Below, piece by piece: positions 11,153 to 32,452 of a stretch of 64,000 bases of DNA; position 1 is the first letter of the stretch; each line of letters opens with the position of its first letter. The translations under genes and the position numbers were made by a program. This stretch comes from Granulosicoccus sp. (GTDB lineage: Bacteria; Pseudomonadota; Gammaproteobacteria; Granulosicoccales; Granulosicoccaceae), in assembly GCA_020627685.1 (NCBI GenBank), contig JAHDGK010000019.1, forward strand, positions 1 through 64,000. The letters are read 5' to 3'. Under the pieces are notes generated by a model. The model worked only from the letters and a program-made list of their open reading frames with translations. It was not told the origin of the DNA and ran no database searches.

Positions 11153-11980
11153 ATGGCTGGATTTTCGTTTTCAGTATTGATCGGACTCACGTTAGGCCTA
11201 ATGCTAACCGGCGCCATTGCGGGTGTTCTCGCCGGGCTTTTGGGAGTAGGTGGCGGCATCGTAATTGTCCCGGTCTTAATTGTCATCGTAGAGCTTTTTG
11301 ACATACACGATAGTATTGCCATGTTGCTCGTAGTCGGCACATCGCTCGCCACTATTATTCCCACGTCGATCTCATCAGCTAGGGCCCACCGTAAACGCGG
11401 TGCCATCGATGTAGACATTTTGAAAGGCTGGATTCCAGCAGTTTTTATCGGTGCGTTAATAGGGGGCATCGCGTCTAAATATATTGGATCGGGTGGACTT
11501 ACCCTTATCTTTGGAGTTGTGGCTCTGATTGTCTCGGTTAACTTGGCCATCAAGAAAACAATCACCCTAGCGTCTGCGCCGCCAGTATCACGCATCTCTC
11601 AAAGTGCAATCGCGCTACCCATAGGTTTTACATCCGCATTGATGGGAATTGGCGGGGGAACCTTATCGGTGCCAGTCTTATCCATGTTGTCCGTGCCAGT
11701 TCACAGGGCTGTGGCTACGGCGTCGGTTTTCGGTCTGGCCATCGCGTTGCCTGCCGTTTGCGGATTCATTTGGGCGGGTATTGGTGTTGAAGGCCGTCCA
11801 CCGGGTTCTATAGGGTTTGTCAATCTGCCAGCAGCGGTTTTATTATTTTCCATGAGTGTTGTGACCGCACCCTACGGTGTTCGACTGGCTCATTCGTTGG
11901 AGCCTCGTAAGCTGAAAGTGGCGTTTGCAATTTTTTTAGGCCTTAGCGCTTTACGAATGTTGTGGAAGTATTTCGGGTAA
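11153..11980 (+). CDS. TauE/SafE family exporter
   Basis: A 275-residue membrane protein of the TauE/SafE (DUF81) family, predicted to move small organosulfur or other anions. The family hallmark appears twice: LLGVGGGIVIVPVL (residues 28-42) and MGIGGGTLSVPVL (163-176), one per repeat. About eight membrane helices. The stop codon is directly followed by the TTG start of the HD-domain gene, so both are in one transcript. The substrate is not known; there is no sulfur enzyme next to it. Confidence 0.9.
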   Translation: MAGFSFSVLIGLTLGLMLTGAIAGVLAGLLGVGGGIVIVPVLIVIVELFDIHDSIAMLLVVGTSLATIIPTSISSARAHRKRGAIDVDILKGWIPAVFIGALIGGIASKYIGSGGLTLIFGVVALIVSVNLAIKKTITLASAPPVSRISQSAIALPIGFTSALMGIGGGTLSVPVLSMLSVPVHRAVATASVFGLAIALPAVCGFIWAGIGVEGRPPGSIGFVNLPAAVLLFSMSVVTAPYGVRLAHSLEPRKLKVAFAIFLGLSALRMLWKYFG

Positions 11981-12631
11981 TTGCACTTGAAGCAGAATGA
12001 TAACCTTCAGAATTGGGACGATACATTTTCCAAAAAAATGCGTGAGCTGGCAGCTGTTGATTCAGCACACGACTTCCTGCATTTTCAGCGAGTAGTTAAT
12101 ACAGCTAAGCGCTTGTGCAGGGAACACCAAGGTGATTTGAACATCGTCCTACCCGCAGCCTGGCTACACGATTTAGTATCGCTCCCTAAAGATCATCCTG
12201 ATCGATCAAAAGCTTCTTATTTTTCTGCTCAGGCCGCCATAGATTACCTAAAATCGGTCGGCTACCCAGATAGTTTTTTGGATCCAATCTTCCACGCTAT
12301 CGAAAGCCATAGTTTTAGTGCCAACATGGCGCCGCTAACACTTGAGGCGAAGATTGTTCAAGACGCGGATAGATTGGATGCGCTTGGTGCCATTGGCATA
12401 TCACGATGTTTCGCCGTTGGCGGAATGCTAAACAGAGCTATATACAGTGGAGATGATCCCTTCTGTGAGCATCGAATTCCCGATGATTCCAGGTATACCA
12501 TTGACCACTTCTTTAGCAAACTGTTTTCCATTGCGAAAACGCTTCAAACCGACTCTGGAAAGGCTGAGGGTGAAAAGCGTGTTCATGCTATGAAGGAGTA
12601 TCTGCGACAGCTTGAAAGCGAAATATTTTGA
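11981..12631 (+). CDS. HD-domain phosphohydrolase
   Basis: A 216-residue metal-dependent phosphohydrolase of the YedJ/YfbR-like HD group. Metal ligands are seen as H in HDFLHFQRVV (residues 28-37), HD in AAWLHDLV (about 62-63), H in IESHS and D in QDADRLDALGA (about 130). These enzymes act on nucleotides or similar phosphates; the substrate is not assignable. The TTG start immediately after the upstream stop is the longest frame; ATG at 12038 is less likely as it would come just before the first motif. Confidence 0.87.
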   Translation: MHLKQNDNLQNWDDTFSKKMRELAAVDSAHDFLHFQRVVNTAKRLCREHQGDLNIVLPAAWLHDLVSLPKDHPDRSKASYFSAQAAIDYLKSVGYPDSFLDPIFHAIESHSFSANMAPLTLEAKIVQDADRLDALGAIGISRCFAVGGMLNRAIYSGDDPFCEHRIPDDSRYTIDHFFSKLFSIAKTLQTDSGKAEGEKRVHAMKEYLRQLESEIF

Positions 12632-12893: not shown

Positions 12894-13352
12894 ATGGAAA
12901 CTTACATACTTTTTGTTGATGACGAGCCGTCTATTTTAGGTGCCATAAAACGCGTATTTCGTCGTTCATCTTATACGGTGCTGACTGCAAACACTGCCGA
13001 AAAAGCATTAGAGCTTATACATTCAACCCCCATTTCAGTATTGGTCTCTGATTACACGATGCCGGGTCAAACCGGTGCAGAGCTTCTCGAAACCGCAAAA
13101 AAAGTACGACCAGATATGACTCGAATAATTTTAAGCGGAAATGGGGATCAGGAAGCGACGATTCAGTCGATAAACCGTGGAGCAGCAAGTCGGTTTTTGA
13201 CAAAACCTTGGGACGATGCCGTTTTGTTGCAAGAAATTGATAAAGCGGTAGAAGAGTGGGAAGAATCGAAATTTCAGATGTCAGCCAGTCATGCAAAGGT
13301 TGGCTTGAAGTTTTTAAAGAAAAACGGTGCGACGCTCTCTGTTACCAAATGA
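12894..13352 (+). CDS. Stand-alone CheY-like response regulator
   Basis: A 152-residue receiver domain with no output domain. Phosphoacceptor Asp53 is in VLVSDYTMPG; the acidic pair is DDE (9-11) and the conserved Lys is in LTKPWDD. The open frame extends upstream to 12771, but ATG 12894 begins at the usual place (METYILFVDDE) and the earlier part looks non-coding. Over the first 115 residues it is highly similar to the receiver of the next gene, so the two arose by duplication. The C-terminal tail (about residues 122-152) is basic and unassigned. Confidence 0.88.
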   Translation: METYILFVDDEPSILGAIKRVFRRSSYTVLTANTAEKALELIHSTPISVLVSDYTMPGQTGAELLETAKKVRPDMTRIILSGNGDQEATIQSINRGAASRFLTKPWDDAVLLQEIDKAVEEWEESKFQMSASHAKVGLKFLKKNGATLSVTK

Positions 13353-13438
13353 CTGTGTTTTGTACAGCCCGATGGCTGAATAGACTCAAATTTTTTAAAT
13401 AAGACATCGGTGATAGACGAATAAGACGTGAGAATACA

Positions 13439-15133
13439 ATGAAAAATCACATTCTTTTTGTTGATGATGAGCGATCAATTCTTAGCTCAATTAAGCGCGC
13501 ATTTCGTAAAACACCGCTGAATATACTCACAACCGATTCAGTCGAAGAAGCGCTTGAACTGATCGAGAGTAAAACGATATCTGTGTTGGTGTCCGACTAC
13601 ACGATGCCGGGATCCACCGGCGCCGACCTGTTGGAGAAAGCGAAAGCTATCCGACCGGAAATGACTCGTATCATCCTTAGCGGAAACGGCGATCAGGAAG
13701 CTACAGTTGAGTCGATAAACCGTGGGGCTGCGAGCCGATTTCTGGCTAAGCCGTGGGATGATGCGCAGCTCATTAACGAAATAACCGATGCAGTCTCTGA
13801 ATGGAAAAAAAGAGTTTTCCTGGATACTGAGAAAAACCTTCTAAATCACACATCTTTTTTAGAGATAGTGGACGGTAAGATATCCGCAAAATCTGCAGAG
13901 AACTATGCCTTAGCTTACTTTGGATTTCATGATTTTGAGAGAATTCAAGATCGAATTGGTCGTGTAAAAATCGTCGAATTCATGAAGCATATTGTTCCTG
14001 CCTCTATGAATGTAGATGCGTGTGTGGCCTTAGGTGCGTTGGATACTCATCGCTATTGTGCATTGGTCTCACTATCTGAAAGTTGTGTAGACGTTGAAAG
14101 CGAAGTAAGAGAACTGGTTGATCAATTTCCACTATCAACTGAGTTCGACGATCAAAAAATTAAATTTTCCTATGATATTGGCTTTGTAGCCGTTGACTCC
14201 GTAAATACTACAGCGTCTAGTTTGTTAGAGAAGTCGATTACTGCATATCGGCATTCCTGTGACCTCAATGGGCAGACTGTTATTGAATACAAAGCCTGCA
14301 TGGATGAACGCAAAAACAGTTTAAATGCGTTAGAAAACGGATTGGATGCCGCGCTAAGCGACAATGAATTTGTTTTATATTATCAACCGAAAATCAATGC
14401 GAACGATGGCTCAGTACATGGTGCTGAGGCACTGATACGTTGGAATAGTAAAGAGCTTGGATTAGTGCAGCCAAACGACTTCATTCCAATAATCGAAAGA
14501 GACAAGGCAATAATTGACGTTGGGCAGTGGGTGCTAGGAGAAGCGGCTCAACAATGGATGAGTTGGTACGGGGTTTTAGACGAGAACTCCACTGTGTCCG
14601 TAAATGTATCCCCAAAGCAGCTGCAGGACAATACATTCATAAAGCGTCTTGAAACCGTACTTACGGAGACGGGTATCAAAGCATCCAATCTGGAGTTGGA
14701 GATTACCGAGAGCCTCATGATGGAGGATATCTGGAAAACTATAAGCATGTTGAAAGATATTAAGTCTTTAGGTGTCATGCTTTCGATTGATGATTTTGGG
14801 ACTGGTTATTCGTCGTTAAGCCATTTGAGCTTAATGCCTGTTGATCTTCTTAAAATTGATCGCTCGTTTATATCGCCAATGTCTGAATCTAAAGAGTCGA
14901 GAAACCTTGTCAATAACCTGATTCGAATGGGACACGATCTAGGTGTAGAGATAGTTGCGGAAGGGGTAGAGGATGAAAACCAACTTAATATCCTCAAAGA
15001 ATATGGCTGCGATTTTATTCAGGGGTATTACTACAGCCCACCTGTTCCAGCGGAAGAGTTTACTAAATTGGTTGGTCAGTTTGAAGTAAGCCGCGTTGAA
15101 TCTGAGTTAGTGGGTTTCAGAGCTGCCGGTTAG
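13439..15133 (+). CDS. Response regulator with degenerate GGDEF-like region and active EAL domain
   Basis: A 564-residue cyclic-di-GMP phosphodiesterase. The receiver (1-125) has Asp53. Residues about 135-290 look like a GGDEF fold without the GGDEF motif, so no cyclase activity is expected. The EAL domain (about 300-550) keeps every catalytic element: EALIRW, VNVSPKQL, ELEITES, IDDFGTGYSSL, LLKIDRSF, IVAEGVED and FIQGYYYSPP. Phosphorylation by the kinase encoded downstream probably controls c-di-GMP breakdown. It is followed 78 bases later by the binding-protein gene. Confidence 0.93.
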   Translation: MKNHILFVDDERSILSSIKRAFRKTPLNILTTDSVEEALELIESKTISVLVSDYTMPGSTGADLLEKAKAIRPEMTRIILSGNGDQEATVESINRGAASRFLAKPWDDAQLINEITDAVSEWKKRVFLDTEKNLLNHTSFLEIVDGKISAKSAENYALAYFGFHDFERIQDRIGRVKIVEFMKHIVPASMNVDACVALGALDTHRYCALVSLSESCVDVESEVRELVDQFPLSTEFDDQKIKFSYDIGFVAVDSVNTTASSLLEKSITAYRHSCDLNGQTVIEYKACMDERKNSLNALENGLDAALSDNEFVLYYQPKINANDGSVHGAEALIRWNSKELGLVQPNDFIPIIERDKAIIDVGQWVLGEAAQQWMSWYGVLDENSTVSVNVSPKQLQDNTFIKRLETVLTETGIKASNLELEITESLMMEDIWKTISMLKDIKSLGVMLSIDDFGTGYSSLSHLSLMPVDLLKIDRSFISPMSESKESRNLVNNLIRMGHDLGVEIVAEGVEDENQLNILKEYGCDFIQGYYYSPPVPAEEFTKLVGQFEVSRVESELVGFRAAG

Positions 15134-15211
15134 CCTAAAAATAATTAAAAAAAGTGCTGAGGGGCATCCAGTCCCTAACTCTGCACAGAATAGATAAGGA
15201 GTTTTTATATC

Positions 15212-16024
15212 ATGAGAAAGTCTGTTTTATTATTGGCCGCGGGAATGTTGCTGGGTACGAGCGTAGTTGCTCAGGCACAGGAATATACGTTTGGGATAGT
15301 GCCGCAGCAATCTTCAAAGAAATTAGCGCGATTATGGGGACCCATACTAAAACAACTGAGTGAGGAGACTGGTTTAACCATAAAGTTTGCGACCGCAAAA
15401 GATATTCCTACTTTTGAAAAACGATTGGCAGCTGGCGAATACGATTTTTCGTATATGAATCCTTATCACTTTACCGTTTATAACCAGTCTCCCGGATATA
15501 TTGCCTTGGCTAAACAGCGTAACAAGGAAATCAAAGGAATCATTGTTGTTAAGAAGGATAGTGAATACGAGACACTGAAAGATCTTGATGGAAAAACTCT
15601 TGCCTTTCCGTCACCGGCCGCATTTGCCGCGACTATTCTGTCTCAAGCCGAGTTAAATAAACAAGATATTGAATTCTCACCTAAGTATGTTTCTTCACAC
15701 GACTCTGTATACCTATCTGTTGCTCGTGGTCTGCTACCTGCGGGTGGCGGGATTGTCCGTACATTCAATAATATCGATCCAGCCGTCCGAGATAAATTGA
15801 AAATATTCTGGACCTCTGACGGTTTTACACCGCATGCGTTTGCGGCCCACCCAGAAGTACCTGAGCAGGACCGAGAACTCGTTGCTAATGCTTTAGCGGG
15901 TTTGGAAGGTAGTGACTCTGGGGTTGAGCTTTTGAAAAGTTTAAATTTTAAAGGCATTCAAAGCGCTGAAGATAAAGACTGGGATGATGTGCGCAAGCTT
16001 CAAATCACAGCGCTGGATGACTAA
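15212..16024 (+). CDS. PhnD-like periplasmic substrate-binding protein
   Basis: A 270-residue periplasmic protein of the phosphate/phosphonate (PhnD) binding family. The signal peptide is MRKSVLLLAAGMLLGTSVVAQA with cleavage near residue 22; the mature protein opens with YTFGIVPQQSSKKLARLWGP, typical of the family. The two-lobe signature EYDFSYMNPYHF is at about residue 73. No ABC permease or ATPase is nearby; instead a membrane kinase gene follows 25 bases on, so it likely feeds a signal to that kinase. GGAG precedes the ATG. The ligand may be an oxyanion but is unproven. Confidence 0.88.
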   Translation: MRKSVLLLAAGMLLGTSVVAQAQEYTFGIVPQQSSKKLARLWGPILKQLSEETGLTIKFATAKDIPTFEKRLAAGEYDFSYMNPYHFTVYNQSPGYIALAKQRNKEIKGIIVVKKDSEYETLKDLDGKTLAFPSPAAFAATILSQAELNKQDIEFSPKYVSSHDSVYLSVARGLLPAGGGIVRTFNNIDPAVRDKLKIFWTSDGFTPHAFAAHPEVPEQDRELVANALAGLEGSDSGVELLKSLNFKGIQSAEDKDWDDVRKLQITALDD

Positions 16025-16049
16025 GAAAAAGCATAACTAACTATTCACT

Positions 16050-17678
16050 ATGTCTCTTCGTTTTAAAACTATTATTGGGGTGGCGTTGATCGAGGCGATT
16101 TTGCTTGCCTTGCTCATCGTCACCGTCATGGGTTTTATGCGTGAAAACGCACATGAAGAGCTCACAAAGCGAGCCTCTACTACCGTCAAACTGTTCGCAT
16201 CCACCGCTAAGGACCCCGTCTTGTCCTACGACCTAGCATCTTTGGATACTTTTAGTAGGGAGCTTGCCAGTAATCCGGATATTGCCTATGTGAGAATTCG
16301 AGAGACAGGTGGAACGATTTTGAGTACCACTGAAGTCGATAGTAAAGCCGAAAAGCCATTTGTTGAAGACACTGATTTAGCCGATGTGGACGATGGTGTT
16401 TTTGATGCCTCAGCGAGTATCTCCGAAGGTGGCATCGAATACGCTCGCGTAGAGCTGGGTATTAACACCAGTAGCATCAATTATAAGATAGAGCAGGCTA
16501 GGCAACTGACTACATTCATAGCGGTTGTAGAAATGACGCTTGTAGCATTGTTCTCCTTGTTGTTAGGAAACTACCTAACTAAAAACCTGGGCGGGTTAAG
16601 GTCGGCTGCCAAGTCTATTTCTGAGGGTGATTATTCAAGGCAGCTGGTTGTTAAAAGTCGCGATGAGATTGGTGAGGCGCTCATAGCGTTTAACCACATG
16701 TCCACAGCACTTAGAGAAACAGAGGCTGCCAGAAACGAGTTTGAAAAAGAACTGATTGATCTGAATCATTCTCTAGAAGATCATGTCGAACGTAGAACCG
16801 AAAAAATAAATGCGCAGATGCTTGAGCTACAAGCTGCAAATCAGACCATTGCCGATACGCAAGCGAAGCTGCTACAGTCAGAAAAATTGGCCTCTTTGGG
16901 ACAACTCTCTGCGGGGATAGCTCATGAGATCAATAACCCCATTGCATTCATCCACAGTAACGTAAAATCACTGTCGGAATACGTCGACGTTTATCAAAGT
17001 CTTCTCAAGTTATTTCAGAGCAGTAGGGATGTTGATCAAGAAGAGCTCGCTGCTCTGATGACAAAAATAGCCGAGCTGGAAGAAGAGGAAGATATCGAGT
17101 TTATCAATGAAGATATTAACTCCTTATTGGGCGATACCATAGACGGCGCCTTAAGAGTAAAAGAGATCGTCAAAGGGCTGCAAGAGTTCTCTCACATCAA
17201 CGGTGATGAGAAAACAGCGTGTGATATCAACAGCTGTCTAGAATCGACTCTGAAGATTGTTAAAAACGATTTTAAAAATCGTTGTGAGGTGGTTTCAGAT
17301 TTTGACGAGATTCCTCTAGTTCATGCTAATCAAGGAGAAATCAACCAAGTACTGTTAAACCTATTGGTCAATGCCGGCCATGCGGTTGAAATTGGCGGAC
17401 ATGTTCAACTAAAGACGCGAGTAATTGAAGGATATGTTGTTATATCGATTCAAGACGATGGCTATGGCATTGAACAGGAAAACTTAGACAAAATATTCGA
17501 CCCCTTCTTTACGACAAAAGAAGTTGGGGTTGGGACAGGCTTAGGGCTTTCTATTTCCTACGGCATTATAAAAGATCACGGTGGAACAATTACTGTAAAT
17601 TCTGAAATCGGGCAGGGGACCACGTTTGAAATACGCTTACCTGCTATCGAGATGATTCTACAACAAGAGGCTGCATAA
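16050..17678 (+). CDS. Membrane sensor histidine kinase (HAMP, ATP-binding)
   Basis: A 542-residue kinase. The first membrane helix is at about 8-30, the periplasmic sensor at 31-152, the second helix at 153-175 and HAMP at about 176-230. A coiled coil of about 45 residues leads to the dimerisation helix with phospho-His292 in SAGIAHEINNPIAF. The N box is NLLVNAGHAV and the G boxes are DDGYGI and GTGLGLSIS. It lacks a receiver, so phosphate must go to the two receivers encoded upstream. The partner sensor is probably the PhnD-like protein. Confidence 0.93.
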   Translation: MSLRFKTIIGVALIEAILLALLIVTVMGFMRENAHEELTKRASTTVKLFASTAKDPVLSYDLASLDTFSRELASNPDIAYVRIRETGGTILSTTEVDSKAEKPFVEDTDLADVDDGVFDASASISEGGIEYARVELGINTSSINYKIEQARQLTTFIAVVEMTLVALFSLLLGNYLTKNLGGLRSAAKSISEGDYSRQLVVKSRDEIGEALIAFNHMSTALRETEAARNEFEKELIDLNHSLEDHVERRTEKINAQMLELQAANQTIADTQAKLLQSEKLASLGQLSAGIAHEINNPIAFIHSNVKSLSEYVDVYQSLLKLFQSSRDVDQEELAALMTKIAELEEEEDIEFINEDINSLLGDTIDGALRVKEIVKGLQEFSHINGDEKTACDINSCLESTLKIVKNDFKNRCEVVSDFDEIPLVHANQGEINQVLLNLLVNAGHAVEIGGHVQLKTRVIEGYVVISIQDDGYGIEQENLDKIFDPFFTTKEVGVGTGLGLSISYGIIKDHGGTITVNSEIGQGTTFEIRLPAIEMILQQEAA

Positions 17679-17757: not shown

Positions 17758-18186
17758 ATGGATAAGGTATTCGTAGATCCGCCCATCGCAGAAATATTAA
17801 GCCTGCTCACTTCACAGGGTCTTACAACTGAAGATCTCTCCGAGCGAGGAGAAATGTGTTTCTTCGGCTTCGGCCAACCGGGGTGTGTGAGAGGTGTCGT
17901 AGGCTTGGAAGTTCACGGGCGTTTCGGGTTACTACGTTCATTAGCAGTTTCCAAAGACTTTCAGCGGAAAGGAACGGCAACGATTTTGGTAAATACCTTG
18001 GAAATCCATGCGCACAAGGTTGGGATAACTGAACTCTACCTCTTAACTGAAACCGCACAAATCTATTTTTCACATCGTGGATTTTCGGTTATTCCACGCG
18101 AATTAGTACCAAGAGAAATTAGAGAAACTCATCAGTTTTCCTCACTCTGTCCGGATAGTGCTACTTTAATGCGAAAGCGCTTATAG
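17758..18186 (+). CDS. GNAT acetyltransferase, ArsN2-like
   Basis: A 142-residue GNAT protein resembling ArsN2-type acetyltransferases: LRSLAVSKDFQRKGTATILVN (residues 61-81) with acetyl-CoA motif QRKGTA, and ETAQIYFSHRGFSVIPRELVP near the end. ArsN enzymes acetylate arsenic-containing antibiotics such as arsinothricin in some bacteria. However, no other arsenic gene is seen here, so only the fold is firm. Twenty bases separate it from the next gene. Confidence 0.8.
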   Translation: MDKVFVDPPIAEILSLLTSQGLTTEDLSERGEMCFFGFGQPGCVRGVVGLEVHGRFGLLRSLAVSKDFQRKGTATILVNTLEIHAHKVGITELYLLTETAQIYFSHRGFSVIPRELVPREIRETHQFSSLCPDSATLMRKRL

Positions 18187-18205
18187 GTTTTATTAAGGAG
18201 CTACG

Positions 18206-18712
18206 TTGGAGAAAGACGAAAACCAAGCAACATTGCATCTAGTTTGTGGAAAGATGGCCTCCGGAAAATCCACGTTTGCGAACGAGCTGGCTGAGAAGAT
18301 GCACCTCATTTGCCTTAGTGAAGATGATCTTCTGGCTAATCTCTATCCGGGCGAGATTACGGATCTGCCTGCCTATATTGAAAAGTCTGGCAAACTAAAA
18401 GCTGGCCTAAAGGCTGTCATCGTTCAACTATTGCGCAACGGTATTTCCGTCGTATTAGATTTTCCCGCGAATACGGTAAAACAGCGCCAATGGTTGGTGG
18501 GTCTTGCAATCGAATCAGATGCTTTGCATGTTTTGCATTTTATCGATCAGCCTGATGACGTGTGCAAAATTCAATTAAAAAAACGAGCTGCAGAAAACCC
18601 GGATAGGGCGGCTACTGATACAGAAGAAATGTTTGATGCTGTAACGCCGTACTTTGTGGCACCGGGTACCGATGAAAATATAAACGTTAAGTGGGTGACC
18701 AAGACTGATTGA
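18206..18712 (+). CDS. P-loop kinase-like ATPase
   Basis: A 168-residue protein of the AAA_33/zeta-toxin-like nucleotide kinase group. The Walker A loop is CGKMASGKSTFA (residues 14-25). A Walker B-like strand is VVLDFPANT at about 87, and a basic segment LKKRAAENPDR follows at about 130, like the lid of these kinases. The TTG start follows AAGGAG by seven bases. The phosphate acceptor is unknown; without a partner antitoxin a toxin role is unlikely. Confidence 0.82.
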   Translation: MEKDENQATLHLVCGKMASGKSTFANELAEKMHLICLSEDDLLANLYPGEITDLPAYIEKSGKLKAGLKAVIVQLLRNGISVVLDFPANTVKQRQWLVGLAIESDALHVLHFIDQPDDVCKIQLKKRAAENPDRAATDTEEMFDAVTPYFVAPGTDENINVKWVTKTD

Positions 18713-18755
18713 GGGCGGTTACTACTTAAAAGCTTGTCGTTCTAAATATCTTGTA

Positions 18756-18788
18756 GTCCTACTACCTCCAACGTGAAGGCAGTAGGAC
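18756..18788. terminator. Hairpin between convergent genes
   Basis: GTCCTACT (18756-18763) pairs perfectly with AGTAGGAC (18781-18788), with CCT/AGG continuing the stem. It lies between the stops of the kinase gene and the TauD-like gene. There is no T-run on either strand, so it is a weak or factor-assisted terminator. Confidence 0.45.
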
Positions 18789-18809
18789 ACAGCAGTCTAC
18801 TTCGCCATT

Positions 18810-19790
18810 CTAGTTATTCCAAACGCGAATAACGTGTCTGGTCTTTTCCTCTGGTGTTTGTTCTGTGTCTGCAAATGCTTCGCGGGCATGCAGTACCGTC
18901 CAATTGTTCAAGTACTGAAATTGACCACCAGACATTTCAAAACGAATATCAGGCTGTTCTGAGATTACCGTTTTCATGGTGTTCAATGCGGCGTCCAGAT
19001 TAGCCGGCAGCTCTTCACCTTTAACACGGTAGCCGTTTCTTACATAGCTGTCGTAGTACCGCGATACGAACTGATTGTCATAGGACTCGAACATAGGGTT
19101 CATTAAGAATCCAGGTTCGTCTTTAGCATGTTCACCCTGCATGTCCCAGGGGCTGCTGACTAGAAGTGTCTTTAAGTGTTCAGGATGAGACTCGACCATC
19201 GCCTTATAGGCGCTCAACATACTGGTGATCTTACTCCCGCCGCCGGATTGGGCATTTCGTACACAATACAAACCCACGTATTTAGCAGGAACTCTGTGCC
19301 AGCCGCCGTCGGTATGGTACGGCTGAGCATGGTTCGTTATGGACTTACGAACTTTTTCAGGATTCTTTGGGTTTGTGTTCTTGACGTCGTACAGCGTTAG
19401 GCCTGCGAAGTTCTGTGCCATGAGTGGGCCGACAAACGAGGAGAACATGCCGCAGACTCGTCTGTTGTCGAGTTCGTGGTACCGCTCAGATGGAATACGG
19501 TCGACGATTACAGCACCCAGTGCATTACTGTCTAACCGTTGCAGTAGTTGCTCGGAAAATTCCACACAATGCTTAAAGTGCTCACGGTTGGATGTATCAG
19601 GTATTTCTACATCACCTGTTCGTGCTAGCGCTTTATCGAATTCATCGATGCAAGCATCGGGTAAGTTCAGAAGTAATGTATCCGCGGAGAGTGATTCGCT
19701 GTGCCAAGCATTTAAATGTGGCTCGGAAATATACCCACTAAGTGCCGAGATGTCTGAAGCGCTGTTGTCTAAATCAGTTTTTATGCTCAT
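18810..19790 (-). CDS. TauD/TfdA-like Fe(II)/2-oxoglutarate dioxygenase
   Basis: A 326-residue oxygenase of the TauD/TfdA family. Iron ligands are H and D in QPYHTDGGW (about residues 156-164) and the distal His in VLHAREAF (about 301); the 2-oxoglutarate-binding Arg is in TRHVIRVW near the end. The family hydroxylates small acids such as taurine, often to release sulfite. Seven bases after the stop of a TauE/SafE permease gene, so the two form an operon, and a sulfonate-type substrate is plausible. It is longer than E. coli TauD (283 residues). Confidence 0.88.
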   Translation of the reverse strand: MSIKTDLDNSASDISALSGYISEPHLNAWHSESLSADTLLLNLPDACIDEFDKALARTGDVEIPDTSNREHFKHCVEFSEQLLQRLDSNALGAVIVDRIPSERYHELDNRRVCGMFSSFVGPLMAQNFAGLTLYDVKNTNPKNPEKVRKSITNHAQPYHTDGGWHRVPAKYVGLYCVRNAQSGGGSKITSMLSAYKAMVESHPEHLKTLLVSSPWDMQGEHAKDEPGFLMNPMFESYDNQFVSRYYDSYVRNGYRVKGEELPANLDAALNTMKTVISEQPDIRFEMSGGQFQYLNNWTVLHAREAFADTEQTPEEKTRHVIRVWNN

Positions 19791-19796
19791 ATTTAT

Positions 19797-20525
19797 TTAC
19801 CTGGTTAATAATCTGTATCCACTCAGTACCAGCAATAGGCTAATAAAGTACTTAAATGTTTTAGGAGATAAACTGGTGTGAACTTTCCCGCCGATCAAAA
19901 GCCCGATAGCCGCGGCGGGTAACCAGTACAGTAATGTTTTCATTTGAAGTAATCCGATTAGTCCGATTACAACAAATCCAATTATTCTGATACTGCCGTC
20001 TATAAAAAAGTAAGTTGCAAAGCTCGCACGCGTCTGCGTCTTATCCAAGCCGCGTAAGTTCAGGTAGATCATGTAGAAGGGGCCACCCGTTCCGAATAGC
20101 GTGCCGACTAAACCTCCAAAAAAACCGATGGGTGCTGACCAAATTTTGCTTCCTTTAAGATCGGGTAGGGGAAGCAGCTGATAGATCGCGAAAATAACAA
20201 TAAACACCGCCATTGCACTGGTGAGCAAGTTGATATCTATGGAGTTGAATGCGTATAACGCTGACAAGCATCCGATGAGCGTAAACGGAAGCAATGGCAG
20301 GATTTCAGGCCAAGCGATAGAAGAGCGGTTTTTCACGCCCTGTGCTGCTGATCCCATAAAATCCAAGATAACCACAAGTGGTACCACTAAGGTCAATGGA
20401 TGTACGAGTGTTAGTAAAGGAATGGCAATCAACCCGGAGCCAAAACCCGATATACCTCTGACAAGGTAGGCTACAAACAGTACGACTCCTGTGTAGGCAA
20501 TCGATCCAAGCTCCGTTGGTATCAT
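19797..20525 (-). CDS. TauE/SafE family permease
   Basis: A 242-residue integral membrane protein with about seven to eight helices. The family glycine-rich motifs are present: GISGFGSGLIAIPLLTLV (residues 24-41) and GTLFGTGGPFYMIYL (140-154). In other bacteria TauE exports sulfite or sulfoacetate formed from sulfonates. Here it is first in an operon with a TauD-like dioxygenase. It is not closely related to the TauE-type protein at 11153. Confidence 0.88.
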   Translation of the reverse strand: MIPTELGSIAYTGVVLFVAYLVRGISGFGSGLIAIPLLTLVHPLTLVVPLVVILDFMGSAAQGVKNRSSIAWPEILPLLPFTLIGCLSALYAFNSIDINLLTSAMAVFIVIFAIYQLLPLPDLKGSKIWSAPIGFFGGLVGTLFGTGGPFYMIYLNLRGLDKTQTRASFATYFFIDGSIRIIGFVVIGLIGLLQMKTLLYWLPAAAIGLLIGGKVHTSLSPKTFKYFISLLLVLSGYRLLTR

Positions 20526-25760: not shown

Positions 25761-25768
25761 CTGTGCCA

Positions 25769-27568
25769 ATGGACGCACATGATCAAATTTCTGTTATCGA
25801 GGCATTGGCTTGTTTAGGGGATCTACCCCTCAACCAATTGTCTGAATTGATCAAGCGGCTTGAGTCCAAACGTATAGCGGCTCAGCAGCCGGTATATTCA
25901 AAAGGAGACGATGCGGATTGGGTCTATTTCGTCGGTTCTGGACGCTTAGCCAGATTTGATGAAGAAACCTACCAGGGCCAGCTTTCTCGAGGTGATATGG
26001 CCGGGTGGGACAGCTTTTATCACCAGTGCCCACGTGATCACACTCTGTTAGCGCAAAATGACTGTTTCGTTTACGGCCTTGACAGGCAAAATCTGCAAGA
26101 ACTGATTAAGGATGTGCCGGAAATACTCGCTGGATTTCTCAGCGCGGCCACGCCTGTTCCGACAACAGGTAAGCCTGCATCGAATGTGGCCGTCAATCGG
26201 CAGATCGGCGTTTTTATGTTCGAGGATTTGGAATCGGTCAGCGAACTCGTTACGCAAAAATTTATGCAGAGCTATTCCGATAATCCTCGAGTGGCCAGTT
26301 TTAATTGCGAGGCTTTTTGCCAATTGGCAGGTATTGGTCAAGCGTATGAGAATCTGTCCGGTCACTTAGCGGCCGATGTATTTGCTCATTTGGAGAGCGA
26401 TCACGACACTGTTGTCTATTTAGCGAACGCTCATGAGCCGCAAACCTGGATGGATAAAATTGTGCACCAGGTGGACACGCTAGTCGTCATTGTTAAAGAT
26501 GGAACAAGCGCATTACCTGCGTGGTTTGAAAACCTGCTTAAAGCAACAGGCAAGCGACCAGGCCTTGTCGTGCTGCGCACAGGATCGGCTGAATTCGGTC
26601 AATCGTCCAGAGCGCTTTGGAATGTGTTCGAACCGGAATGGCACTACCGCTTGCACATTGATGATACTCGTCGATGGGCATCGGTTGGTCGAATGGCGCA
26701 GGGGCGGGCTATTAACCTCGTGCTTTCCGGCGGCGGTTGTCTGGGCGCCATCCATTGTGGAATTTTGCAAGCTTTAAATGACGGTAATTTTCCCATCGAC
26801 ACCATTGGCGGAACTTCGGCCGGGGCCGGAGTTGCGATTGGCTATGCGCTTGGTGATACGACTGAAGAAATTTCCAGAAAATTTCGTTATGCGTTTACTG
26901 AGCAGAAGCCGTTTAGCGCTTACACGCTACCGTTCTACGGATTGCTCAGCCCTAAGAAGCTAGATCGTGTTCTGAAGGAAATCTCTGAAGATCGCTGGTT
27001 GGAGGAGAGTCATATACCGATTCATGCAACCGTTACAAATCTCACCCAATCCACTGCGGAAGTGCTGACAACCGGGCCAGCCTGGGAAGCCATGCGGATG
27101 TCGGGATCATTACCAGGGATATTGCCGCCGTTCATCCGAAACGGCTATTCCTACATAGACGGTGGGGTAATGAACAATTTTCCGATCTCAGTCGCTAAGC
27201 AGAAGTACGGAGGACGCTTCGTCGGTGTGACGTTTAAAATCCCCAGTGATGACCTCATACAGTGTCGTTACGAGGACCGCCCAAATTCGTTTCAGGCCGT
27301 GTTGTCTAAGCTCAATCTAGCGAAAGCAAACGACTACCCCGGTTTGGGAGGGGTTTTGGCAAATTCCCTAATGCTAAGCAACTCCTCTGTTCTTAAGGAC
27401 GCGATCAACCGTGTTGACTTGCTCCTGCATCCGCCGGTGCCTCATAACGTCGGTGTGACCTCGTTTGAGCGTTTTGACGAACTTTACGAAATAGGTGTAG
27501 AGTACGGACGTCAGTATATCGCTGACCTAAAAAAGTCCGGATCCGCGGACGATTGGATCGATTTTTAA
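25769..27568 (+). CDS. Patatin-like phospholipase with N-terminal cNMP-binding-type domain
   Basis: A 599-residue NTE-type lipase. Residues 12-125 are a cyclic-nucleotide-binding-type beta barrel, but the phosphate cassette is changed (GDMAGWDSFYHQCPRDH instead of GExALL.xxPRxA), so it may not bind cAMP. Residues about 145-300 are a Rossmann-like linker. The patatin domain has the oxyanion loop SGGGCLGAIH (about 320), nucleophile Ser350 in GGTSAG and Asp464 in DGG. It should cleave phospholipid or lysophospholipid at the membrane. First gene of a six-gene signalling cluster. Confidence 0.92.
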   Translation: MDAHDQISVIEALACLGDLPLNQLSELIKRLESKRIAAQQPVYSKGDDADWVYFVGSGRLARFDEETYQGQLSRGDMAGWDSFYHQCPRDHTLLAQNDCFVYGLDRQNLQELIKDVPEILAGFLSAATPVPTTGKPASNVAVNRQIGVFMFEDLESVSELVTQKFMQSYSDNPRVASFNCEAFCQLAGIGQAYENLSGHLAADVFAHLESDHDTVVYLANAHEPQTWMDKIVHQVDTLVVIVKDGTSALPAWFENLLKATGKRPGLVVLRTGSAEFGQSSRALWNVFEPEWHYRLHIDDTRRWASVGRMAQGRAINLVLSGGGCLGAIHCGILQALNDGNFPIDTIGGTSAGAGVAIGYALGDTTEEISRKFRYAFTEQKPFSAYTLPFYGLLSPKKLDRVLKEISEDRWLEESHIPIHATVTNLTQSTAEVLTTGPAWEAMRMSGSLPGILPPFIRNGYSYIDGGVMNNFPISVAKQKYGGRFVGVTFKIPSDDLIQCRYEDRPNSFQAVLSKLNLAKANDYPGLGGVLANSLMLSNSSVLKDAINRVDLLLHPPVPHNVGVTSFERFDELYEIGVEYGRQYIADLKKSGSADDWIDF

Positions 27569-28388: not shown

Positions 28389-28442
28389 TCGTTGTATTTT
28401 TGGCTGCGTATTTGGGTAGATATCAATGATGGAATTGAAATA

Positions 28443-29648
28443 ATGTACACACTCCTACGGTCGGGAAAAGCTGCTCTAATGGCTGCTATGGCACTTGCAG
28501 CCTTATCGGCAAACGCCGAAACAAAAATAGGTGCACCATTTGCTCTCTCAGGCTCGGTTGCGGCATTAGCCGCTGATATGAAAGCCGGTGCTGCGCTCGC
28601 AGCTACGCACGTAAACGCACAGGGTGGAGTGCTGGGTGAGAACTACGAGTTGCTATACAGGGATTCCGCGTGTGAGCCTGGTAAAGCCGTTGAGGTCGTT
28701 AAATCGCTGATTGAAGAAGACGGTGTCAGTGCGCTCGTTGGCCCTGTGTGTTCTGGGGCCACACTCAGGCAGGCGCAATCTGTCTCTATTCCGGCGGGAG
28801 TGGTTACCCTTTCGGTGGCCTCAGCATCTCATCTCATCACCAATTTGCGCGATCGGGATTTAGTTTTTAGAACAGCCCTATCGGACTCCTATAAGGGTGA
28901 GGCGATGGCCGCCTATGTTTTCGAGCAAGGTGTCTCGTCTTTATCGGTGAGTTTTGCCAGCGATGCGTACAATACAAGCTTGGCAAAAGTTTTTACACAA
29001 GCTTTTGAAAAGCTTGGTGGGGAGGTTGTCATCAATCAGGTTCATCAGCCTGAGAAATCTGATTACAAACGAGAGGTTGACGCCTTGGCAGGTGGCTCAG
29101 AAAATCTAGCCTTGTTTGCTTACTACGGCTCGAGTGGCACCCAGCTCTTGAAAGATGCTGCTGTGGGCGGAAAAATAACAACGGTATTCGGATCAGATGG
29201 CCTATTGTCGCAAGAACTTATCGATACTATCGACGCGGCGTTGTTGTCTGGTATTAGTATTTTAACCACTTCAGCAGATGAATCACGTCAGTCATTCAAG
29301 ATATGGCAATCACTAGCGGATGAAGCCGGTATACCTGCTTCGGGACCTTTCGTTGCAAACTCCTACGACGCAGCCTTTATGATGGCTTTAGCGATTGAGG
29401 CAGTGCAATCGTCAAACCGCGACATGATATCTGAAGGCTTACGCCAGATATCCGGGCCGGAGGGAGAGGTCATTTATCCCGGAGAATTTGCCAAAGCAGC
29501 AGCCATTTTGAAATCGGGTGGTAGCGTCAACTATGAAGGAGCTTCTGGCACAGTGGACTTTGATGCCAAAGGGGATATTGCCGGTTTCGTTAGTATTAAC
29601 AAAGTCGTCGATGGGCAGTGGGTTGCACAACTGATGACGTCTCAATAA
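28443..29648 (+). CDS. LivJ-like periplasmic ligand-binding protein
   Basis: A 401-residue periplasmic protein of the branched-chain amino acid (Peripla_BP_6) family. The signal peptide comprises SGKAALMAAMALAALSANAETK with cleavage before ETK; the mature part opens IGAPFALSGSVAALA. Lobes meet near LVGPVCSGATL (about 100) and FVANSYDAAFM (about 308). ATG 28443 is chosen; a frame from 28392 would add 17 residues before the signal. No ABC transporter is nearby: it is followed 20 bases on by a membrane kinase and probably acts as its sensor. Confidence 0.92.
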   Translation: MYTLLRSGKAALMAAMALAALSANAETKIGAPFALSGSVAALAADMKAGAALAATHVNAQGGVLGENYELLYRDSACEPGKAVEVVKSLIEEDGVSALVGPVCSGATLRQAQSVSIPAGVVTLSVASASHLITNLRDRDLVFRTALSDSYKGEAMAAYVFEQGVSSLSVSFASDAYNTSLAKVFTQAFEKLGGEVVINQVHQPEKSDYKREVDALAGGSENLALFAYYGSSGTQLLKDAAVGGKITTVFGSDGLLSQELIDTIDAALLSGISILTTSADESRQSFKIWQSLADEAGIPASGPFVANSYDAAFMMALAIEAVQSSNRDMISEGLRQISGPEGEVIYPGEFAKAAAILKSGGSVNYEGASGTVDFDAKGDIAGFVSINKVVDGQWVAQLMTSQ

Positions 29649-29667
29649 GTCTGCGCAAGGGCTTACG

Positions 29668-31236
29668 ATGTCGTTTTTCAAGCGTTTGTGGTTCAGGGCA
29701 GGAGTTCAGCTGAAATTTTTGCTGATCATCGTGCCTCTTATGCTTGCACTTACCCTGCTGGGTGTTGCGCTTGTTCAGTTAAAGGCGAGTGAAACAGCCA
29801 CTCAACGTGCAATTACACAATTTGACAAAGTGGGCATCAGCGCGTCAGATGCGCTGGCTGTAGAATTTTGGAACTACAACGTCACGCAGGCTCAAGCGAT
29901 CTTAGAAGCACTCTTGTTAATTCCTGATGTGCTTAGCGTCGCCACAGTTGAGATTGCAGACAATACGCCGGTTGAAAACAGCGGGTTCATGTTCAGCTTT
30001 GAAGTACCCAAAGAGAACATATCGGTCGGAGTGCTCGAGGATACAAAAGCGATTCAATCTGCTGCCTTTGACATCGTGAACAACAAAGGTACCGCGGAGG
30101 CTGAAGTTATCGGGCAACTCACCATCGAGTACAGTTTGCATAGTCTGCTGGCGAAAAACCGATCTGATTTATACCGTACGCTTCTTGCCTCTTTACCCAT
30201 AGCCTTAGCGCTTATTATTGGAACCACAGTCGCACTTAACAGGCTTATCTTAAAGCCCATTTCTGCGGTGACCAAAAGCTCCTTGGCCGGTTATAACAAT
30301 CTCTCACCAGATTATGAATATGAACCTGTCCAGTGGGATTCCGGGGATCAGCTAGGCGTATTGGTCTCCTCTTTTAATGAATTGCGCGAACGGCAAATTC
30401 AAAACACGCGACAGCTAGAGCAAGAACAAAAAGCATTGGCGCAGCACGCAATAGAAATGGAGGAGCTGTCCACAGTTGCGCAGGATGCGAGAGATGAGGC
30501 AGTCGCCGCAAATGCCGCTAAATCCAGGTTTTTAGCCGTCATGAGTCATGAGCTTAGAACACCGTTAAATACCATCATCGGCTTGAGCGAAACCATAGAA
30601 AAAAACTACGACAGGCTTAGTGACGACAAACGAAAAAGCAGTTTAGGGCGAATAAAATCAGCTGGCCGGCATCTATTATCTATGATCAATGAGATTCTAG
30701 ATTTGTCGAAAATCGAAGCTGGAAAAATGGAGCTTGAACTTGCTGAGAGCTCCATTCAGGACATATTGGCCGATTCTGTATCTATGTCTGAATCACTTAC
30801 GACCGATAACAAGAATAAACTTTCGCTCGATGTCGCGTCCGACTTACATACTGCGTGGGTAGACGGTCGGCGAGTGAAACAAATTATGCTCAACTTAATA
30901 TCTAACGCCACGAAGTTTACAAAAGACGACGACATACAAATCGTTGCACGGAACGCATCCGACTCTACTATCCAAATCTCGGTAGAAGATCACGGTATCG
31001 GTATTCGTGAAGAGCAGCAGGAAAAATTATTCCAAGACTTTCAACAAGCAGAAAACTCTACGGCGAGAAAGTACGGTGGTACCGGTCTAGGCTTGTCTAT
31101 AAGTCGTAAGCTTGCCAGAGCTATGGGAGGAGACATCACTTTGTGGTCAGAGAGTGGGGTCGGCACGCGTTTTACGGTAGTTCTTCCAGCCTTCTCCGGT
31201 CAGACCAACGACTCTAAAGCCCACAAGGTTTTATAA
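29668..31236 (+). CDS. Membrane sensor histidine kinase
   Basis: A 522-residue kinase. First membrane helix at 15-38, periplasmic region 39-168, second helix 170-192, then HAMP and a coiled coil. His294 lies in VMSHELRTPLNTIIG. ATP-binding boxes are NLISNATKFT, DHGIGI and GGTGLGLSIS. There is no receiver domain, so the phosphate should pass to the receiver-PP2C protein, whose gene starts five bases after this stop. The periplasmic region is short enough to act through a bound partner such as the LivJ-like protein. Confidence 0.93.
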   Translation: MSFFKRLWFRAGVQLKFLLIIVPLMLALTLLGVALVQLKASETATQRAITQFDKVGISASDALAVEFWNYNVTQAQAILEALLLIPDVLSVATVEIADNTPVENSGFMFSFEVPKENISVGVLEDTKAIQSAAFDIVNNKGTAEAEVIGQLTIEYSLHSLLAKNRSDLYRTLLASLPIALALIIGTTVALNRLILKPISAVTKSSLAGYNNLSPDYEYEPVQWDSGDQLGVLVSSFNELRERQIQNTRQLEQEQKALAQHAIEMEELSTVAQDARDEAVAANAAKSRFLAVMSHELRTPLNTIIGLSETIEKNYDRLSDDKRKSSLGRIKSAGRHLLSMINEILDLSKIEAGKMELELAESSIQDILADSVSMSESLTTDNKNKLSLDVASDLHTAWVDGRRVKQIMLNLISNATKFTKDDDIQIVARNASDSTIQISVEDHGIGIREEQQEKLFQDFQQAENSTARKYGGTGLGLSISRKLARAMGGDITLWSESGVGTRFTVVLPAFSGQTNDSKAHKVL

Positions 31237-31240
31237 GACT

Positions 31241-32452
31241 ATGGACAGTGATATGCCCGCCTATAAAATTCTGATTGTTGATGATATTGAAAACAATCGG
31301 TTTACTTTAGACATCATGTTGTCAGTACTGGGTGAGTTCGATGTGGATGAGGCCGAGTCGGGCCCTGAAGCGTTAGAAAAACTCGAACAAACAACCTACG
31401 ACCTAGTGCTGCTCGATATCATGATGCCAGGCATGACGGGTATTGAGGTACTGGAAAAACTCGATTTAGCAACGTCTAGCTTAAACACAAAATTTATCGT
31501 TGTGTCTGCTTTGCAGGATATGGAAATCATTGTTAAGGCGCTAGAGCTCGGGGCGTTAGATTACCTGCCTAAGCCTATTGAAGAGGCACTTCTCGCCGCA
31601 CGATTAAAGCAGTTATTAGAGCGTCGCGAAGCTGATGAAGAACTACGTAAAAACAAGGAGCGAATTGATTCAGATTTAAAGAAAGCGGCGGATATTCAAA
31701 AATCATTGTGTCCAGAACAAACCCTTTCTTTCAAGTCTTCGAGCGGAGAGATTTGCTGCGAGTTGGCTGGCAGTATGCAGCCTGCATACGAGGTGGGCGG
31801 GGACTTTTATGACTACTTTGAACTGCCTGATGGCAACATCGTCGTGGTCATCGCCGATGCTTGTGGAAAAGGAGCTCCTGCTGCCATATACGCCAGTAGA
31901 GTTCACGATTTGCTCAGAATGGTTGCATTTAACAAAGCATCGGAGACAAAAAGTAACGGCGAGGAAAGCTTGCTTGCCATGCTAACTGCCGTTAACACGA
32001 TTCTGAGCGAAAACAACGATGCGTGTTGGTTCGTAACCACATGGGCCGGTATTTATTCCCCAGAAGATCGTGTGTTGACTTGGTGTTCGGCTGGGCATTG
32101 TGATGCGTTGTTGCAGAATCCGGATAACAGTGTAGAACCATTGAGTATAGAAACGGGTTTGCCTATCGGGCTTGACGAGATGTTCTCAGCAAAGGTTGAC
32201 TCCAGAATCCTGTCGGCAGGTTCTAAGTTGCACTTGTATACAGACGGCATCACTGAGCATAGAAAAGAAGACGGAGATTTTGTTGGGGAGGACGGCCTTA
32301 TCCAGCTGTTTGAAAAACTTGCTCCGAAAAATTTGTCGATTAAAGATAACGTTAAAGCCGTAACAGACAGCGTAGTGGGATTGAATTCTAAGCAGCCGCC
32401 CGAGGATGACATTACGCTGTTAAGCCTTTCTGTTATGGATACAAGTTCTTAA
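31241..32452 (+). CDS. Response regulator with PP2C/SpoIIE phosphatase domain
   Basis: A 403-residue RsbU-type regulator. The receiver (8-128) has Asp59 in LVLLDIMMPG and Lys in YLPKPIEE. A helical linker with the IQKSLCPEQ signature leads to the PP2C domain (about 175-400). Metal-binding motifs are intact: GGDFYDYFEL, ADACGKGAPAA and PEDDITLLSL. When phosphorylated it should dephosphorylate the STAS protein. The last gene of the cluster; ten bases from the convergent kinase gene. Confidence 0.94.
   Translation: MDSDMPAYKILIVDDIENNRFTLDIMLSVLGEFDVDEAESGPEALEKLEQTTYDLVLLDIMMPGMTGIEVLEKLDLATSSLNTKFIVVSALQDMEIIVKALELGALDYLPKPIEEALLAARLKQLLERREADEELRKNKERIDSDLKKAADIQKSLCPEQTLSFKSSSGEICCELAGSMQPAYEVGGDFYDYFELPDGNIVVVIADACGKGAPAAIYASRVHDLLRMVAFNKASETKSNGEESLLAMLTAVNTILSENNDACWFVTTWAGIYSPEDRVLTWCSAGHCDALLQNPDNSVEPLSIETGLPIGLDEMFSAKVDSRILSAGSKLHLYTDGITEHRKEDGDFVGEDGLIQLFEKLAPKNLSIKDNVKAVTDSVVGLNSKQPPEDDITLLSLSVMDTSS

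Follow-up and report, generated by a model that had tools for sequence, protein, structure and literature searches.

A four-gene cluster in Granulosicoccus sp. probably encodes a bipartite periplasmic receptor that feeds a two-component switch acting on cyclic di-GMP (c-di-GMP). The cluster lies in the first 64,000 nucleotides of contig JAHDGK010000019.1 (assembly GCA_020627685.1), the whole stretch of DNA that was analysed, hereafter the window. The four genes are present in the order and at the positions given in a preliminary description of this DNA (receiver, receiver-EAL, PhnD-like protein, HAMP kinase), all on the forward strand, and are separated by gaps of 86, 78 and 25 bp:

12894 (ATG)-13352, + strand: lone receiver (REC1), 152 amino acids (aa) with a short C-terminal tail (PF00072, E 1.5e-20, scanned from an upstream TTG)
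13439-15133, + strand: REC - degenerate GGDEF - EAL response regulator (REC-EAL), a predicted c-di-GMP phosphodiesterase (PF00072, E 2.3e-19; PF00563, E 2.3e-72)
15212-16024, + strand: PhnD-like periplasmic binding protein (PF12974, E 5.7e-61), with an N-terminal signal sequence recognized by eye
16050-17678, + strand: membrane histidine kinase with a transmembrane (TM) helix, periplasmic cache domain, second TM helix, HAMP, HisKA and HATPase domains (PF00672 and PF02518 over cut-off; PF00512 slightly under)

The observed basis consists of these genes, their domains, intact motifs and conserved neighbourhoods. We infer the ligand, the docking, the phosphotransfer, the sign of the response and the role of the lone receiver. 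The PhnD-like protein would bind a small ligand in the periplasm and dock on the cache domain of the kinase. Docking would shift the balance between autophosphorylation and phosphatase activity, and the kinase would exchange phosphate with the receiver of REC-EAL, thus setting c-di-GMP hydrolysis. The lone receiver may also accept phosphate from this kinase, in which case it most likely serves as a sink or as a competitor of REC-EAL.

The preliminary description had suggested a survey of the neighbourhoods of PhnD-like genes that lack transporters. In the 56 PhnD loci read, a signalling gene adjoins PhnD in 55. The same cache-type sensor is encoded by the next or next-but-one gene in 44 loci, and 11 of the 12 loci without it adjoin another kinase, cyclase or regulator (the exception is L076). 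Based on this 56-locus count, the association of PhnD with signalling genes is not due to chance. Gene order, on which the earlier proposal depended, is conserved: REC-EAL, PhnD and kinase are contiguous in 8 of the 56 loci, window included, in addition to the recurrent sensor.

The outputs joined to the pair vary and include a kinase with REC-EAL or REC-HD-GYP, a hybrid kinase with a sigma-54 regulator, and GGDEF(-EAL) proteins. By type, the 56 loci comprise 28 with a non-hybrid kinase, 10 with a hybrid kinase (six of these with a REC-sigma54 regulator), three with GGDEF, three with a cut or split partner and 12 that are sensorless. Within 7 kb, 21 of the non-hybrid kinase loci have a REC-EAL and/or REC-HD-GYP gene, compared with none of the 28 remaining loci. 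Because all 21 fall within the non-hybrid kinase loci, a path from ligand to PhnD-like protein to kinase to phosphodiesterase, as proposed earlier, appears well supported on comparative grounds. A tree of PhnD proteins (80 rows) requires 12 output changes among 66 labelled rows, and the receptor pair thus appears to have been joined repeatedly to new outputs; the tree is a quick one with several long branches, and 33 of its loci were retrieved via the sensor rather than PhnD. In L072 and L074 the PhnD-like gene lies directly downstream of a hybrid kinase of 1272-1334 aa, not upstream of a cache partner.

Several observations weigh against the proposed switch. Seven of the 28 kinase loci have neither REC-EAL nor REC-HD-GYP inside 7 kb, although some loci are short (e.g., L040). 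The REC-EAL beside PhnD and the kinase in Vibrio coralliilyticus and in Salinivibrio fails several catalytic motif patterns. Among 50 cache-sensor loci examined, the 12 that lack a PhnD-like frame also count against it (one of them, L185, stops at a contig edge); the other 38 have such a frame in the same orientation and speak for the pairing. The 12 loci also favour an alternative in which the cache domain of the kinase does the sensing by itself and the PhnD-like protein stands beside it passively or without any relation to it. CitA-type cache domains bind ligands directly. Residues 1-172 of the kinase are modelled as a helix, a cache domain and a helix (mean predicted local distance difference test score (pLDDT) 86.5), and their nearest folds are WalK, LapD-type and CitA periplasmic domains (Z 11-14.5, with CitA and LapD at about 11). 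The kinase's own sequence has no Pfam cache match, and sCache_3 matches, all weak, were obtained for 12 of 31 relatives; this resemblance to known cache sensors supports the proposed receptor. Against sensing by the kinase alone, the gap between PhnD and sensor genes is tight (mostly -4 to 125 bp) across several outputs, and an alignment of 31 sequences shows strong conservation of the sensor and of the first TM helix irrespective of output type. We rate sensing by the kinase without the binding protein as improbable.

A second alternative assigns the binding protein to an ABC transporter encoded elsewhere, as its solute receptor, or to general scavenging, with its adjacency to the kinase reflecting only co-regulation. 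PF12974 proteins are mostly transporter subunits, and the genome is rich in ABC ATPases: the PhnC model has 153 matches there, all under its cut-off. However, neither PhnE (best 55.9 bits versus 216.7) nor PhnC (best 208.1 versus 266.1 bits) exceeds its NCBIfam cut-off in this genome, and a role in ABC transport was rejected on these grounds. The adjoining signalling genes and the co-distribution with one sensor domain also argue against it, as do six ABC ATPase-like genes that a motif search identified in one set of the loci, none of which adjoins PhnD (L040 was judged by coordinates). The genes flanking the cluster (11153-12631 and 17758-20525) belong to the TauE, HD, GNAT, AAA_33, TauD and TauE families by Pfam scan, with no ABC permease or ABC ATPase among them, as the preliminary description had stated; the window does have ABC ATPase matches, but far from the cluster, at about 44.5 and 61.6 kb. 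We regard the transporter explanation as very improbable, and the distant transporter named earlier as a possible refutation did not emerge among PhnE and PhnC matches over cut-off.

Three proteins of this genome match PF12974, and the window protein does so most strongly; it scores 85 bits against the TIGR03431 PhnD model, below the cut-off of 261. A single-sequence search recovered orthologues from 15 of the 48 genomes searched in the family (E<=1e-20) and from 17 of the 369 searched in the class (E<=1e-60). A profile search gave matches in 29 of the 398 genomes searched in the phylum (E<=1e-40), the weaker of them probably belonging to other subfamilies. Its AlphaFold2 (AF2) model (mean pLDDT 93) has VIA Z scores of 21-25 to HtxB, PtxB, XAC2383, ArrX and AioX, and by sequence the solved structure that it matches best is ArrX. 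A ligand assignment based on the fold was considered and rejected, because binders of phosphite, hypophosphite, phosphonate, arsenate and sterol all score Z 21-25.

According to the part of PMC5908839 consulted, the AioX pocket residues are Ser161, Ser163, Tyr88 and His192. Counted by hand along the printed profile alignment, Ser161, Ser163 and Tyr88 correspond to A137, A139 and I65 in the window protein, and His192 is kept as H163. The Ser-x-Ser motif of ArrX, PtxB, AioX and a Trichodesmium phosphonate/phosphite binder likewise aligns to Ala-Phe-Ala. Three of these residues are conserved: A137 is Ala in 38/38 and H163 is His in 38/39 sequences, and A139 is Ala in at least 90% of 36. The ligand is probably not a simple oxyanion, and "PhnD-like" probably misnames it; because the anion-binding residues are changed, the label should not be taken to mean that the protein binds phosphonates.

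On the output side, the window REC-EAL has a complete set of EAL catalytic motifs by pattern check, and the central region has no GGDEF motif by pattern, both as first described. A degenerate GGDEF domain (residues 155-284, E 2.5e-30) was found with a profile seeded from a relative; a Pfam scan does not detect it in the window protein and does so in its nearest relative (E 1.1e-8). The REC-HD-GYP partners of different loci vary at the HD pair, which is changed in L007 and L030, for example, and preserved elsewhere.

REC1 and the receiver of REC-EAL share 71% protein and 65% nucleotide identity, and they differ at 76/120 third codon positions versus 49/240 first and second positions; a recent duplication was rejected on this basis. 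The preliminary description had treated a duplicated receiver as part of the arrangement, but a lone receiver precedes REC-EAL only in the window (1/56 loci). When both copies are compared with the receivers of 13 other REC-EAL proteins, REC1 is the closer one in 12 cases and ties in one, so the lone receiver is the more conserved copy and is probably functional. Its best NCBIfam match is NosR of a nitric oxide (NO)-sensing system (143.6 bits, covering the receiver part only and under the whole-protein cut-off of 400).

A further possibility extends the bipartite-receptor reading rather than opposing it: the cluster could be a periplasmic arm of the H-NOX/NosP network that links NO to c-di-GMP. 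The PhnD-associated kinase and the H-NOX kinase would then derive from one chassis, both feeding the same HnoB-like REC-EAL, tuned by HnoD-like REC-HD-GYP proteins. We rate this proposal at somewhat below even chances. Within its own genome, the window kinase core is closest to the HNOBA kinase encoded next to H-NOX (40%, E 2.9e-53; the next paralogue is at 1.2e-32), and the nearest paralogue is the H-NOX neighbour in nine of 12 family genomes with both genes (G000, G001, G006, G008, G009, G015, G043, G044 and G045). H-NOX occurs in six of the 56 PhnD loci (L007, L030, L034, L036, L038 and L196), each with a kinase beside it, and Pfam HNOB confirms it in L007, L196, L030 and L036. It is also found in 12 of 15 PhnD-positive versus 13 of 33 other family genomes (Fisher p 0.013, uncorrected for relatedness). 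The NosR match of the lone receiver is consistent with such a link, and there is a precedent in Shewanella oneidensis, where two kinases converge on HnoB/C/D according to the portion of PMC6335343 consulted. The core paralogy and the six loci with H-NOX together suggest that the PhnD-associated kinase gives the H-NOX c-di-GMP network an input from the periplasm.

Against this, the paralogue pattern fails in G007, G032 and G037, is a near tie in G015 (220 versus 212 bits) and includes a locus with a broken H-NOX (G006), and the 12 genomes are related to one another. In 50 of the 56 PhnD loci H-NOX was not found within the stretch read. In the window's genome H-NOX lies on other contigs (C2, C18) and not at the window locus, and its companion kinase on C2 contains an HNOBA domain and adjoins a REC-HDOD gene. 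In Vibrionaceae another soluble kinase, encoded next to the EAL gene, is nearer to the core; in V. coralliilyticus this is a PAS kinase (44%, versus 31% for the local PhnD-associated kinase). A broader scheme is more tentative: one kinase chassis with exchangeable auxiliary sensors, in which a core used with H-NOX (possibly also NosP) gained a cache domain and a periplasmic binding protein, an external small molecule and NO converge on one REC-EAL, and the binding protein, now without the oxyanion pocket, senses a new class of ligand. HnoS was considered as a counterpart of the window kinase and not adopted; its signal is given as unknown in the consulted part of PMC6335343. The genome encodes one FIST (NosP-type) gene. 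Judging by its title, a 2019 paper reportedly ties NosP to the HnoS network.

On contig 2 of the window's genome, H-NOX, the HNOBA kinase and REC-HDOD stand in a row (L228, 5574-8818), with no EAL or HD-GYP gene adjoining. The V. coralliilyticus plasmid pOCN014, typed as mobilizable, encodes the PhnD-associated kinase, H-NOX with its kinase, Hpt, REC-HD-GYP, REC-EAL, PAS kinase, CheC, receiver and HDOD genes (L196, 5275-18208). L007 and L075 also have an HTH-receiver gene resembling HnoC.

The co-sensor, kinase and EAL path stood up to comparison, but the combination is less novel in kind than first claimed, because binding protein and membrane partner systems are already described for XAC2383-XAC2382 (cyclase) and AioX-AioS (arsenite). 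Teixeira et al. reportedly described XAC2383-XAC2382 in 2018 as a binding protein and membrane partner with a GGDEF cyclase output, and the paper is said to list homologues with other outputs, possibly kinases. Like that pair, in which the partner's periplasmic cache is as reported, the window has a PF12974-fold periplasmic protein beside a membrane protein with a cache-type fold, and no transporter of its own over cut-off, as in bipartite periplasmic binding protein-cache receptors. The XAC2383 structure (5ub3) superposes on the window protein with Z 24.3 and 2.4 A over 248 residues, tied with transport proteins; at the sequence level the match is weak (profile E 0.09) and no nearer than PtxB or ArrX. 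The output differs, being a GGDEF cyclase there and a kinase with REC-EAL in the window.

As in the window, a PF12974-type protein starts a kinase pathway in AioX-AioS-AioR and ArxX/ArrX (PMC5908839, consulted in part). In AioX-AioS-AioR the regulator drives RpoN transcription, whereas the output in the window is a phosphodiesterase; no transcriptional response regulator accompanies the window pair, whose regulators are REC and REC-EAL, and the AioX pocket is not conserved apart from His192 (H163). HnoX-HnoK-HnoB-HnoD shares a homologous kinase core and a kinase to REC-EAL step; it also has a REC-HD-GYP partner and receives input from several kinases (PMC8846402 and PMC6335343, consulted in part). 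Its sensor is a cytoplasmic H-NOX, whereas the window pairs a membrane kinase with a binding protein in the periplasm. In the window, a REC-EAL with intact catalytic motifs stands beside a kinase of the H-NOX-kinase lineage, and H-NOX is absent from the locus. NosP-NosK-NosR, in the consulted part of PMC12570481, also has an auxiliary sensor governing a kinase with a c-di-GMP-tied regulator, and its NosR model is the one that the lone receiver fits best; unlike the window, it has a FIST heme protein, no membrane kinase and a REC-HD-GYP output.

In the open-licence literature we found no PhnD system with a histidine kinase and c-di-GMP, diguanylate cyclase or biofilm (the XAC pair surfaced via structure search only), and no system that joins a PF12974 co-sensor to an H-NOX-kinase-like core and REC-EAL. 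According to the part consulted of a review on c-di-GMP sensing from 2022 (PMC8846402), SBP_bac_3 is the sole member of the binding-protein clan that has been investigated in c-di-GMP networks. What is new here is the paralogy with H-NOX kinases, the Ala-for-Ser change in the pocket, and a lone receiver unique to the window yet the more conserved copy. A widespread PF12974 co-sensor that is linked to the NO kinases and has three or more kinds of output offers a direct way to find out which external signal cells combine with NO in biofilm decisions, and the kinship with NO-sensing kinases may mean a second input into that network.

In two Vibrio species (loci L006 and L005), PhnD, a hybrid kinase and a sigma-54 regulator appear to lie within an exopolysaccharide locus. 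Read by eye, L006 (3330-14137) has Wza- and tyrosine-kinase-like genes upstream and glycosyltransferases downstream; L005 is similar and shares its gene lengths. The species in which exopolysaccharide-like genes were recognized by eye beside the REC-sigma54 regulator is Vibrio mexicanus. Elsewhere in the window, positions 28392-32452 (+ strand) encode a Peripla_BP_6 protein, a histidine kinase and a REC-SpoIIE phosphatase, a second binding protein-kinase-regulator cluster that may be a further co-sensor module with a PP2C output. Just before it, positions 25763-27568 encode a patatin-like phospholipase with a cyclic-nucleotide-binding domain at its N-terminus.

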